A stretch of 64,000 bases of DNA from Porticoccaceae bacterium (GTDB lineage Bacteria > Pseudomonadota > Gammaproteobacteria > Pseudomonadales > Porticoccaceae). A program made the position numbers and the translations under genes. The stretch is from positions 62,001-126,000 of the forward strand of contig JALOAH010000001.1 of the NCBI GenBank assembly GCA_023228865.1, in the 5' to 3' direction. Below the pieces are notes generated by a model, which searched no databases, was not told the DNA's origin, and worked only from the letters and a program-made list of their open reading frames with translations. Below, piece after piece: positions 53,889-58,275 of the stretch. The number at the start of each line of letters is the position of its first letter. The first letter of the stretch is position 1.

Positions 53889-54728
53889 CTATCCGCAAAA
53901 CCTCATGGAAAAATCAATGGCTCGACAATGCTTGGTCAAGCTTCCTGAAGAGAGAAAATCAACCCCCGCAATAGCCACCCGCGCCAGCGAATGCTCGTCC
54001 AAATTACCGGATATTTCAATCTTCACACCCGGCGCTTTCTCCGCCACAGCCTGCCTGACAAGCTCGGGGGAAAAATTATCGAGCATAATAATGTCGGCTT
54101 TTGCCGCTATCGCCTGGCGATATTCATCCAGGGTTTCCACCTCAACCTCCACGGGTTTGTCGGGGGCAATACGGCGAGCGGCGGCAATGGCCTCGCCAAT
54201 ACCGCCACAGGCGGCAATGTGGTTTTCCTTAATCAAAAAAGCGTCGTACAACCCCAAACGGTGATTATGGCAGCCGCCCACCACAGTGGCATACTTCTGC
54301 GCCAAGCGCAGGCCGGGAATGGTTTTGCGGGTGTCGAGAATTTTAATGCCCGTGCCCTCCACCAATTTGGCATACTGGCGGGCAATGGTTGCCGTGCCAG
54401 AGAGGGTTTGCAAAAAGTTAAGCGCCGTGCGCTCGCCGGTTAACAGCGACCGGGCTGAACCCGAAAGGCGGCAAACCAGCTGATCAGGAGCGATATCCGT
54501 CCCCTCTTTAGCCTCCCACACCACGCTGACATCAGCATCCAGTTGGCGAAACACCTCATCAAACCAGGGTTGGCCACAGAGAACGGCGTTTTCACGGCAA
54601 ATTACCCTTGCCTCGGCGCTGGCCTGTTCAGGAATCAGCATGGCGGTGATGTCGCCGCTGCCTATGTCTTCTGCAAGGGCAAGAGTAATGATTTTCTGGA
54701 TATAATCTTCGGGAAGAATAACAGGCAT
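53889..54728 (-). CDS. nadC: nicotinate-nucleotide pyrophosphorylase (carboxylating)
   Basis: NadC makes nicotinate mononucleotide from quinolinate and PRPP in NAD synthesis. The 279-residue product (start [11 protein letters not shown] at 54728) has [66 protein letters not shown] and the C-terminal [11 protein letters not shown], all family blocks. It is complete. Its start region is not shared with the cassette downstream in coordinates, which lies upstream in its own transcription direction. Confidence 0.97.
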
Positions 54729-54864
54729 GTGCTTAGGTGCTCCGATAAAAACCGTGGGATTATAGCATTTTCGTTTTTTCCGATCGCACAAGAATAACTA
54801 ACTGATGAACTAGCCAATCTATCAATAAAACTAGCGCCTTTTAAAATCGCACAACCTCAAAGAC

Positions 54865-55680
54865 CTATTCAGTAAACTCGTGCACCTTACGAGCCTCAAT
54901 AACGGCCAAATACATCAATATGCATGTCAATGAATATGTATGTACAGGTAACAGCAAAAAGAACGCCGCGTGCATGGCAATACCAAAAGGAATCAACAGC
55001 GACTGAAACCGCTTGAAAAACAAACCAAATGCGAGAACATACTCAAGGACAAGAACCACCAGCGCCAGGCCGCGCATCAGTGGGTTGAACCACCAGGGCT
55101 CAACGAACGTGGAGCCAAAATAAAAGAGCACCGCGTAATACTCCATCCTCACACCAGAAACCCAGAGCGGATAACTTTTATCAAAAGCTGCCCAAAAATA
55201 CAAAACGCAAAGCTGGAGCATAATCAGGCGCAATCCCCATAAATTGCCATACTCAGGCGGCATAGGGGATTGAGAGAGGGCGGACTCCCTCACCAGAAGC
55301 TTTCGATCTACTGAGTATGATTTTCCTGCAGGCGTGAGGGCAGACAAAAACGACATCCAAGCCAGTAGATAAGTATGGTGATGGTTCCAGCCACTTACAC
55401 CCAAACCATAACTAAAATGGAAGTACATCAGAAATAATGTTGCAGAAACCCACAATGTGGAAATTCTCGTTTTATAACCAACCAGCATCAAAGTGGTGGA
55501 AAGAAAAAAACTGACGGACAATAAGAAGTAATTGAGACTGAGATGCTGAAAAAACGACAACTCCCCTGCCCAGCGCGCCCAGATAAGGAACACAAGGCCA
55601 ATGCGAATGATTGCGCTCGATCTTGTGGAACCGCTGTAATCAAAGCACCAGGCATTAACTCTGGCTAGATAAGAGGACAT
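54865..55680 (-). CDS. HTTM-domain multipass membrane protein
   Basis: The 271-residue protein has seven or eight hydrophobic segments and the layout of HTTM proteins, the membrane domain shared with vitamin K-dependent gamma-carboxylase. Family-like features are SSAIIRIGLVFLIWARWAGE near the N-terminus, WNHHHTYLLAWMSFLSALTP in the middle, LRLIMLQLCVLYFWAAFDK and the closing amphipathic helices. A full carboxylase site cannot be claimed. The start at 55680 has GAGG nine bases upstream; a TTG at 55689 is in frame. It is the last gene of a four-gene run and lies 11 bases from the previous stop. Whether it modifies a protein or a lipid is not known. Confidence 0.82.
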   Translation of the reverse strand: MSSYLARVNAWCFDYSGSTRSSAIIRIGLVFLIWARWAGELSFFQHLSLNYFLLSVSFFLSTTLMLVGYKTRISTLWVSATLFLMYFHFSYGLGVSGWNHHHTYLLAWMSFLSALTPAGKSYSVDRKLLVRESALSQSPMPPEYGNLWGLRLIMLQLCVLYFWAAFDKSYPLWVSGVRMEYYAVLFYFGSTFVEPWWFNPLMRGLALVVLVLEYVLAFGLFFKRFQSLLIPFGIAMHAAFFLLLPVHTYSLTCILMYLAVIEARKVHEFTE

Positions 55681-55691
55681 ATTCAGCAACC

Positions 55692-56102
55692 TCAGCAGAT
55701 AATAGTTTGACGATCGGCCACCAACGTCCAGCCACCAATGAGTGTCGCTCTATGAGCTGTGATTTGAAGGAGCTGATTGGGATAAATCACACAAAGTTCC
55801 TCCATAAGCCGGTCGAGGCCATCCTGATGACTGATGCTCAACGGCTTGTCAGCTGGGATCATTCTGTACGCTTTAACTACAGCATCAATTTCAAGGTTGT
55901 GCCATTGGCCATCGCCGCTTTTTTTTACGTTGATTTTATGCACACCAAGACCGATTTGGCTGAACATAGTCCATTGTCGAAACAAGATATTATTTACATC
56001 AAGCACCTGCCTCAGGAACGGGCCTATCAAAATAAAGCAGGCTACAACGATAAAGATAAAATAACGCAACTGACCAAGTTGATTAGTCATTAAGGTTCTC
56101 AT
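55692..56102 (-). CDS. unrecognised small membrane protein with periplasmic domain
   Basis: I do not recognise this 136-residue product. It has one membrane helix (about residues 14-32, YFIFIVVACFILIGPFLRQV) and then a predicted soluble part. That part starts FRQWTMFSQIGLGVHKI, continues as a beta-rich stretch and ends near a lone cysteine. The WTMFS patch resembles a segment common beside HTTM proteins, but that is weak. It overlaps the DCC gene by 20 bases and precedes the HTTM gene by 11, so it is almost surely a partner in the same process. A second in-frame ATG at 56090 is an alternative start. Confidence 0.7.
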   Translation of the reverse strand: MRTLMTNQLGQLRYFIFIVVACFILIGPFLRQVLDVNNILFRQWTMFSQIGLGVHKINVKKSGDGQWHNLEIDAVVKAYRMIPADKPLSISHQDGLDRLMEELCVIYPNQLLQITAHRATLIGGWTLVADRQTIIC

Positions 56103-56538
56103 CCTCTATAAATTTTTGTTTTAATTGTTCACTGGGAAGCAAACAATAGTCTTTTTTTCCAAACCAGCGATATCGTCTCCTGCCGATGAAATCATAGACC
56201 TTATCTGTCAGCACTGCGGGTAACCATAGAAAATATTGCAAAAGATTGAATGGAAATGCCATCTTCGCCAATAAGATTCTCCATGCGCCGCTCTTGCTGT
56301 ATAAGCGGTTCCCCTCAACAACAAAAAAGGAATTTAACCTCTCGTTTTCGGGTATTTTGTAATAATTGAGTACGCTTACTCCAAAGGCTGACTGTATTGA
56401 AGCGAAACGGCATTGGTCTAACCTGTCGTGCTTAATGAGGAAAATGACTGAGCTCTCGCATAAATTGCAGACGCCATCAAAAAGCACCAGGGTTTTTTCA
56501 CTGGAATACATACAAAAAACCGTCGTCTCCACTGACAT
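56083..56538 (-). CDS. DCC-family (DUF393) thioredoxin-like protein
   Basis: The 151-residue product has the hallmark DGVCNLCESSVIFLIKHD near the N-terminus, the CxxC dithiol of the DCC family, followed by the family's FASIQSAFG and SKSGAWRILLA regions and RRRYRWFGKKDYC near the end. DCC proteins are predicted thiol-disulfide oxidoreductases and often neighbour or fuse to HTTM domains. The start at 56538 overlaps the propeller gene by 41 bases; an ATG at 56511 is possible, but GAGGG is better placed for the first. No signal peptide is seen, so the dithiol is probably cytoplasmic. Confidence 0.88.
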   Translation of the reverse strand: MSVETTVFCMYSSEKTLVLFDGVCNLCESSVIFLIKHDRLDQCRFASIQSAFGVSVLNYYKIPENERLNSFFVVEGNRLYSKSGAWRILLAKMAFPFNLLQYFLWLPAVLTDKVYDFIGRRRYRWFGKKDYCLLPSEQLKQKFIEDENLND

Positions 56539-57643
56539 AGACGCGACCCTCGTGAATCAGAGGCACACTGGTCACCTTGGCCTGGGTCTGATAACTAAAC
56601 AATTCAACACCATCCTGAGCGCGTAACCAATAAATACGGCCATCTGCAGAACCAACAATGACAACCGACTCTCCGGTCGCTAATGAAGCAATAGTTCCCG
56701 AACTTAAAATTTTTCCCCCAGTGTTAAATCGCCAAATCTCCATACCTGTACGAGCATCCAAGCCGAAAAAACTGCCGTTATGAGAACCGACAAATAGCAA
56801 ACCCAACTTTTCATCAATCGACGGACTACTCATGGTCATTGCCCCTGTATTGAAGCGCCAACAGAGCTTTCCACTACCCTGATCGAGGGCGTAGACATGA
56901 TGATCCCAGGATGTAAAATAGACGTTTTTCTCAAACAGGGCTGCGGTGGACTTGATGTCTCCCTGACTGTCGAATCGCCATATCAACTCACCGGTTACTC
57001 CATCCAAAGCTACAAAGCGATCACTGTTCGCGCCCAGAAAAATACGGCCTGATTCAGTATTAATGGTGGGCGTGGCGTGGGTATGCCCGCCCAGAAAATA
57101 CCTGGGCATACAGTCCCACTTCGTTTCTCCCGGCTGCACACAGGCGACGTACCCGTTGGGCGCCGAGGTCTCAACCCCAACATAAACCTTTTTGTTCCAA
57201 ATCACTGGCGAAGCGCCGATAAAGTCACCCAGCTTGTACTGTTCTGCAAGTTCGCCCGTCAGTTTGTCAAGTTGGTATAACCATCCGTCGTAAGCACCAA
57301 TATAAACAAAGCGCCCATCAACCGCCGCAGTGCCATGAATGCCAAAAGCCGCCTGCGGCCTCACAGCGAAACTCCACAGGGTAGTACCACTGTTGGCATC
57401 AATGGCATAAATATGGCCAGTATCAACCCCCACATAGAGGACGCCCTGGTCAATAACAGGGGAAGACTTGGCTGCCGTATGAATACCCACATTCAGCAAC
57501 CCTTTTTTATAGTAAAGTGAAGGGGTGGAGCTGACGACCTCTTCGGGGTAGTGGCCAGTATGGGTCAATGGGTAACGGTAAAATGTATTGGCTTCAGTTA
57601 TTAGTGAACAGGCCAGCCAAAAGGCAGCAAAAACAAATCTCAT
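56498..57643 (-). CDS. exported PQQ-like beta-propeller protein
   Basis: The 381-residue protein has a signal peptide (about residues 1-18, MRFVFAAFWLACSLITEA), with a cysteine preceded by WLA that is a poor lipobox. Seven blade-like repeats follow, each with a pattern such as YVGVDTGHIYAIDANSGTTLW, and the last is YVSGDDGFLYVFQ. This is the quinoprotein/BamB-like propeller fold. No catalytic Ca-PQQ residues are evident, so it may be a scaffold or binding protein. Two cysteines (YVACVQPG and KWDCMPR) lie close together and may form a disulfide. It is the first gene of the four-gene run, with only 54 bases to the terminator behind pilA. Confidence 0.87.
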   Translation of the reverse strand: MRFVFAAFWLACSLITEANTFYRYPLTHTGHYPEEVVSSTPSLYYKKGLLNVGIHTAAKSSPVIDQGVLYVGVDTGHIYAIDANSGTTLWSFAVRPQAAFGIHGTAAVDGRFVYIGAYDGWLYQLDKLTGELAEQYKLGDFIGASPVIWNKKVYVGVETSAPNGYVACVQPGETKWDCMPRYFLGGHTHATPTINTESGRIFLGANSDRFVALDGVTGELIWRFDSQGDIKSTAALFEKNVYFTSWDHHVYALDQGSGKLCWRFNTGAMTMSSPSIDEKLGLLFVGSHNGSFFGLDARTGMEIWRFNTGGKILSSGTIASLATGESVVIVGSADGRIYWLRAQDGVELFSYQTQAKVTSVPLIHEGRVYVSGDDGFLYVFQ

Positions 57644-57696: not shown

Positions 57697-57738
57697 CACA
57701 TAAAAAAACCCCGGATAAACCGGGGCTTTTTTTATGTG
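57697..57738. terminator. terminator after pilA
   Basis: GCACATAAAAAAACCCCGG and CCGGGGCTTTTTTTATGTGC form a long stem around ATAAA, with A and T runs outside. It ends the pilA transcript and also insulates the propeller cassette from it. Confidence 0.93.
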
Positions 57739-57780
57739 CTAATACGCTATTGGCAGCTTCCGACTAGAGCCGGGCAAGGA

Positions 57781-58236
57781 TTAATCACCGCCACCACCGC
57801 CACCAGTAGCTGGACCCTGACAGGAGCCAGGGCGAAACTGGGCTGGTATCGTACCCTCACAAACCCATACGGTTATAACACCATCGGCTTCGACAATCGT
57901 GGGCGTTAGGGTGATAGTTTGACCATCAACCTCACCGTTGCCAGTATTTGTAGCCGTGGCGGTAATCACGCCATCAGTCCCATTGACTACACTGCTAACA
58001 TATTGGGTAGCGTTGTCTTCCACGATGTTTGCAGGAATTGTATTGGTATTTGTCGCCGCCACGTACTCAGCTATCGCTGTTCTACCTGCCGACGCGGCAA
58101 GAATAACCTCAGACACTTTTGCACGGGTGGTATAGTTGTTGTATGCGGGCAGTGCAATGGCCGCCAGAATACCAATGATTGCCACTACAATCATCAGCTC
58201 GATAAGGGTAAAACCCGATTGTTTTTTCATATCCAT
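57781..58236 (-). CDS. pilA: type IV major pilin
   Basis: The start at 58236 (MDMKKQSG) has GGAG six bases upstream. The prepilin leader ends at Gly, and the mature pilin begins [20 protein letters not shown] with the conserved Glu5. The cut is made by PilD, encoded at 61706. The rest is a variable beta region, with two cysteines near the C-terminus ([15 protein letters not shown]) that close the D-loop. The protein ends in an unusual stretch [10 protein letters not shown] after the disulfide loop. The 151 residues include an eight-residue leader. Confidence 0.96.
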
Positions 58237-58275
58237 GTGTTTCTCCAAAGTTAATTAATAACGCTTAAAATTGAC

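Follow-up and report, generated by a model that had tools for sequence, protein, structure and literature searches.

A cassette of four minus-strand genes was analysed in a 64,000-nucleotide stretch of Porticoccaceae DNA (assembly GCA_023228865.1, contig JALOAH010000001.1, positions 62,001 to 126,000; the whole stretch is called the window, and coordinates are numbered from its first letter). The cassette is best described as a two-gene core, probably a split relative of vitamin K-dependent gamma-carboxylase (VKGC; GGCX), to which a DCC protein and an exported protein were added locally, and not as a four-part machine. The HTTM protein and a 136-residue membrane protein are read, at slightly better than even confidence, as the two subunits of a split VKGC/GGCX-type enzyme. 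This reading draws on the pairing of the two genes, a natural fusion, conserved catalytic residues and the fold resemblance of a predicted model. The cassette genes, in order of transcription, are as follows.

56498-57643, minus strand: PQQ/BamB-like beta-propeller, 381 residues (open reading frame and Pfam); first cassette gene, possible substrate or passenger.
56083-56538, minus strand: DCC1-like thiol-disulfide oxidoreductase, 151 residues, likely start 56511, motif DGVCNLC (open reading frame and Pfam).
55692-56102, minus strand: single-transmembrane protein, 136 residues, alternative ATG 56090; proposed detached VKGC lumenal domain.
54865-55689, minus strand: HTTM protein, 274 residues, TTG start, alternative ATG 55680; proposed as the membrane half of a split enzyme.

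All four reading frames lie where an earlier note on this DNA had placed them. That note took their packing as the mark of one system; its overlaps of 41 and 20 bases hold for the longest reading frames and fall to 14 and 8 with the ATGs at 56511 and 56090, and its 11-base gap before the HTTM gene holds if ATG 55680 is used but is only 2 bases with the listed TTG start. By itself, such packing is only weak evidence of a single system. Adjacency that is conserved gives strong evidence for the pair of small protein and HTTM protein and weak to moderate evidence for DCC; it was not seen for the propeller.

GTDB genome contigs were searched with an HTTM profile of 21 sequences (A1: the window, the Sulfitobacter locus L001 and 19 of 43 HTTM homologues), giving 28 loci. 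In all 28 the gene immediately upstream of HTTM, in the same orientation, encodes a homologue of the 136-residue protein. The same order was found on a Sulfitobacter plasmid (two records matched, one opened). The loci came from Hyphomicrobiales (18, of which 14 Mesorhizobium), Poribacteria (4), Myxococcota/Polyangia (3) and 'uncultured proteobacteria' (3), and are not independent because the Hyphomicrobiales, and Mesorhizobium among them, predominate. In the reverse search with the small protein, HTTM followed directly downstream in 16/16 loci, nine of which were new relative to the first set as judged by sequence (L107, L108, L111-L117). PF05090 was found in 4 of 299 Pseudomonadota genomes: two with the pair, one with a full-length VKGC and one with a lone weak HTTM match. 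The pairing is thus a property of this HTTM clade and not of all HTTM proteins.

Small-protein profiles were built from the window and 18 of 29 small homologues (A3) or from the window and 25 of the 28 loci (A5, leaving out L018, L021, L029 and L001); A5 was the basis of the predicted model and of most profile tests. Counts of genomes made with A3 or A5 are minimum values, since only part of each genome's candidates was scored. The family is rare: it was present in at least 2 of 398 sampled Pseudomonadota genomes, at least 5 of 68 sampled around a Poribacteria genome within its phylum, and at least 7 of 86 from the phylum of the L026 genome, a sample overlapping that taken around a Polyangia genome. 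The nearest HTTM relatives, P0003 and P0004 (66 and 63% identical), lie on metagenome contigs outside all locus counts, and the four-gene set may occur in such close kin.

One of the 43 HTTM homologues, P0040 (474 residues), is a natural fusion. Its C-terminal extension comprises a hydrophobic stretch (313-331) and a domain, and residues 369-442 were matched by the small-protein profile (E 4e-10). Membrane part, last transmembrane helix and lumenal domain stand in the same order as in GGCX. The fusion is good evidence that the small protein and HTTM work as one.

The HTTM protein scored 40.5 bits with Pfam PF05090 (gathering cut-off 27.7), and all eight PDB sequences matched by the HTTM profile were GGCX, which bears out the relation to gamma-carboxylase stated in the earlier note. 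In the profile alignment K171, H105 and H240 correspond to GGCX K218, H160 and H287, and all three are invariant in 21/21 HTTM sequences; in the HHHTY motif, H104 could instead be the match to H160. In GGCX, vitamin K hydroquinone is deprotonated by K218 as the base, H160 contacts Glu, the quinone pocket is lined by M401, and M401 together with M402 belongs to the wall that separates the quinone and Glu pockets (PMC12589487). W44, M46 and F47 of the small protein correspond to GGCX W399, M401 and M402 (numbering counted from the alignment), and the active site would thus be shared by both subunits.

The small protein gave no Pfam match up to E 1, and 19 family members gave no NCBIfam match up to E 10 (SdpA TIGR04034 included). 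The 'unrecognised membrane protein' of the earlier note can nevertheless be placed: it is paired with HTTM in the loci examined and probably forms that enzyme's lumenal domain. R13, F17, G27-P28, Q32, W44 and W125 are invariant in 26/26 rows of the family, and M46 is conserved in 25/26. Cys104 and Cys136 are both present in 22/26 rows and both absent in the other four, all from Poribacteria; this joint presence or absence suggests a disulfide in the outer domain. When the predicted model was compared by fold, the GGCX fold headed the match list. Against a profile of 38 rows of the bacterial VKGC lumenal domain the small family scored 22.7 (P 0.0089), a value that none of 300 column shuffles reached; the alignment spans 100 columns and keeps the register expected for the transmembrane helix, proline, W-x-M and strands. 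The controls SdpA and DCC scored 15.5 and 13.2. P was 0.0003 (0/300 shuffles) when P0040 was added and 0.045 (1/60 shuffles higher) with only five lumenal rows.

Several results temper this comparison. The HTTM profile, as a control, itself scored 20.5 against the 38 rows, so plain likeness of membrane helices may account for some of the score. Fourteen extra small proteins weakened P to 0.028 (2/200 shuffles), or 0.023 (1/200) with P0040. Single small proteins were not separated from SdpA controls by a hidden Markov model of the VKGC lumenal domain, and PF22777 was matched neither in the 19 family members (E up to 10) nor in P0040; the positive control, the full-length VKGC of L051, matched at 1e-34. 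Sequence support for the relation is therefore thin, and with neither a PF22777 match nor separation by the model the small protein is not filed as a PF22777 member. It probably works like, and descends from, the VKGC lumenal domain.

Relative to GGCX and bacterial full-length VKGC (PF05090 + PF22777), the cassette thus has an HTTM part with equivalents of Lys218, His160 and His287 and, in P0040, the same order of parts. It differs in that the window encodes two polypeptides, with the outer-domain gene first, and in the outer domain itself, which is far shorter and carries the Cys pair that is present or absent jointly.

By analogy with GGCX, the HTTM protein would be the membrane half with catalytic K171 and H105, and the small protein, in complex with it, would contribute the last transmembrane helix, the W-x-M linker, whose GGCX equivalent lines the pockets for quinone and Glu, and a reduced lumenal (here periplasmic) domain. 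K171 would deprotonate a reduced quinone, whose oxidation by O2 would yield a strong base; an exported protein would then lose a proton from an acidic side chain and become carboxylated there, with DCC supplying the reducing equivalents instead of VKOR.

The 151-aa DCC protein matched PF04134 (DCC1-like) at 90.6 bits, and no signal peptide was visible by eye. DCC neighbours were sought within the flanks fetched around each locus, using a profile built from five DCC proteins (E cut-off 1e-4). Beside the split pair DCC was seen in the window, Sulfitobacter (L001) and L025 only, that is, in 2/29 relatives; it was not found in 27 of the 28 split loci of the GTDB set, nor in any of L104-L117 (flanks 1.5 kb). 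DCC is therefore not part of the core, and it is here an optional addition, unlike in plain DCC1-like (DUF393)/HTTM neighbourhoods, in which likewise a DGxCxxC protein adjoins an HTTM gene. Such neighbourhoods were given as known in the earlier note; no confirmation was found in the literature searched here. The partnership does recur. DCC adjoined full-length VKGC in 4/4 loci of one class (L051, L055, L059/L092 and L060/L093), of which L055 is a Paracoccus plasmid and the others are taken as Alphaproteobacteria on the strength of 65% identity between the enzymes of L051 and Paracoccus. It was found in 0/30 loci of the Myxococcota sample (flanks up to 1.5 kb) and 0/3 Bacteroidota plasmid loci. 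In L054 (5832-7610, minus strand) a 593-residue frame joins an N-terminal DCC domain to a part that matches HTTM weakly and to an additional C-terminal region; of these, Pfam confirms DCC only. Occurring with some split loci, some full-length VKGC loci and in L054, DCC is an optional companion of HTTM proteins of the carboxylase type and could plausibly be the bacterial counterpart of VKOR.

Beside the full-length VKGC and DCC of L051 (4834-5598, minus strand) lie genes for two small proteins rich in Asp, both with a signal-like N-terminus and one EF-hand-like by eye; they are possible acidic, calcium-binding substrates. In the phylum of a Polyangia genome, which is VKGC-rich, the VKGC lumenal domain was found in 34/140 sampled genomes, with up to four matches each.

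The 381-residue protein matched PF13570 (174.4 bits) and PF13360 (124.3 bits) and fell below the BamB equivalog TIGR03300 (140.1 against 285.2 bits), so it is assigned to the PQQ-like superfamily only. That it may be exported, as the earlier note had it, is suggested by a hydrophobic N-terminus (residues 3-21). No propeller was found near any of the 29 relatives of the core pair (flanks up to 7 kb). With DCC in 2/29, the four genes rarely co-occur within the fetched flanks, which is an outcome that the earlier note itself named as refuting, and its four-part set is not supported; its carboxylase relation and DCC partner are. In Hyphomicrobiales a protein with a signal-like N-terminus followed HTTM in 17/18 loci:

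L003-L011, L013-L018, L021 and L029 (for example L004, 7840-8997), downstream of the pair: partner with signal-like N-terminus, candidate substrate.

The L004 partner has an SdrD_B-like domain (one copy tested) and overlaps HTTM by 4 bases; the match of the L009 partner spans residues 1-231 only. A lineage-specific exported neighbour may be a pattern of the split pair, and in the window this neighbour would be the propeller.

A second candidate substrate is the neighbouring pilin, as the cassette lies on the minus strand between a type IV pilin gene and nadC, where pilin accessory genes stand in certain other genomes.

53889-54791, minus strand: nadC, quinolinate phosphoribosyltransferase (context; Pfam).
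57709-57725, separating the cassette from pilA: probable terminator, a G+C hairpin with A and T runs on its two sides.
57781-58248, minus strand: type IV pilin gene pilA (context, alternative substrate candidate; Pfam).

The hairpin was listed for the plus strand, and its minus-strand T run was read from the sequence; no minus-strand terminator-like site was listed in the gap between HTTM and nadC. The pilin ends in a GGGGGGD tail (region 57709-57860). Further neighbours (pilB, pilC, pilD, DUF1631, ampD) were named by eye from translations, with no family match behind the names. Both pilA and nadC were seen in 4/10 fetched loci of presumed related genomes. The interval held a TfpZ pilin accessory protein in L103, an O-antigen-ligase-type protein with other genes in L099, tRNA-Thr and a galE-type gene in L096, and tRNA-Thr with other genes in L098. 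In P. aeruginosa, genes inserted at tRNA-Thr-pilA distinguish the pilin alleles (PMC4628258). The flanks fetched for the 28 relatives gave no pilin match. The cassette shares its chromosomal slot with pilin accessory genes of the TfpZ and O-antigen-ligase types, and is not known to have a sequence relation to their products. A more specific proposal, that a two-subunit gamma-carboxylase in this slot modifies an acidic residue of the pilin or propeller, with DCC replacing VKOR, is tentative and on the unlikely side; it would amount to a bacterial post-translational modification carried out by a split form of the carboxylase known from blood clotting.

SdpA-SdpB of B. subtilis (TIGR04034 / PF17418) is the best-known pair of a small membrane protein and an HTTM-like protein, and like the cassette it stands behind a further product gene. 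The likeness is a functional analogy. Maturation of this kind, with HTTM and the small membrane protein processing the exported product encoded upstream, here the propeller, was considered rather improbable. In its favour, the HTTM-like protein encoded next to an SdpA gene is related to HTTM (hhalign against A1, P 4e-8; Pfam 25.4 bits, just below the cut-off), that Myxococcota sdp-type locus runs in the order product (as it is read here), small membrane protein and HTTM, and a linaridin cluster described in PMC9927463 also holds an HTTM protein. The small proteins, however, have no detectable sequence relation: the small profile scored 14.0 against 72 SdpA sequences, within the range of 30 shuffles (8.5-17.5), the 19 family members lack any NCBIfam match, and the one SdpB-like protein examined has a residue other than His at the His160 position. 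Structure models were predicted for both the small protein and SdpA. The sdp-type operon itself (product gene, SdpA, HTTM-like SdpB) was seen in L033, and SdpA was found in 1/112 genomes of the Myxococcota sample. A membrane thiol:quinone redox module of HTTM and DCC, with the small protein structural and no carboxylation, is also an unlikely account. It fits the adjacency of DCC to both split and full-length HTTM genes and their joining in L054, but not the 27 of 28 split loci without DCC in the fetched flanks or the invariance of the Glu-side H105 and the base K171.

One dedicated system of all four genes, with the propeller as substrate or cofactor, would explain the overlapping same-strand genes behind a probable terminator and has a parallel in the exported-like Hyphomicrobiales partner; with no propeller in the fetched flanks of any of the 29 relatives it is given little weight. 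That the fold match is coincidental and the small protein an unrelated subunit of an HTTM enzyme is very improbable, as the top fold belongs to just the enzyme of which the neighbouring gene encodes the other half, and in P0040 the two stand in the right order.

If the split VKGC-type enzyme is the correct reading, the pair would be a two-piece form of the carboxylase that acts in blood clotting. A family without a Pfam or NCBIfam match, HTTM-paired in Pseudomonadota, Myxococcota and Poribacteria, thereby receives a probable identity, and the VKGC fold is suggested to exist in separable form. In a two-piece carboxylase the membrane catalyst and the substrate-side domain could be expressed and studied apart. 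The function of bacterial VKGC homologues would become more testable, with the product of the exported-protein gene beside the split pair as candidate substrate and DCC as possible equivalent of VKOR in bacteria.
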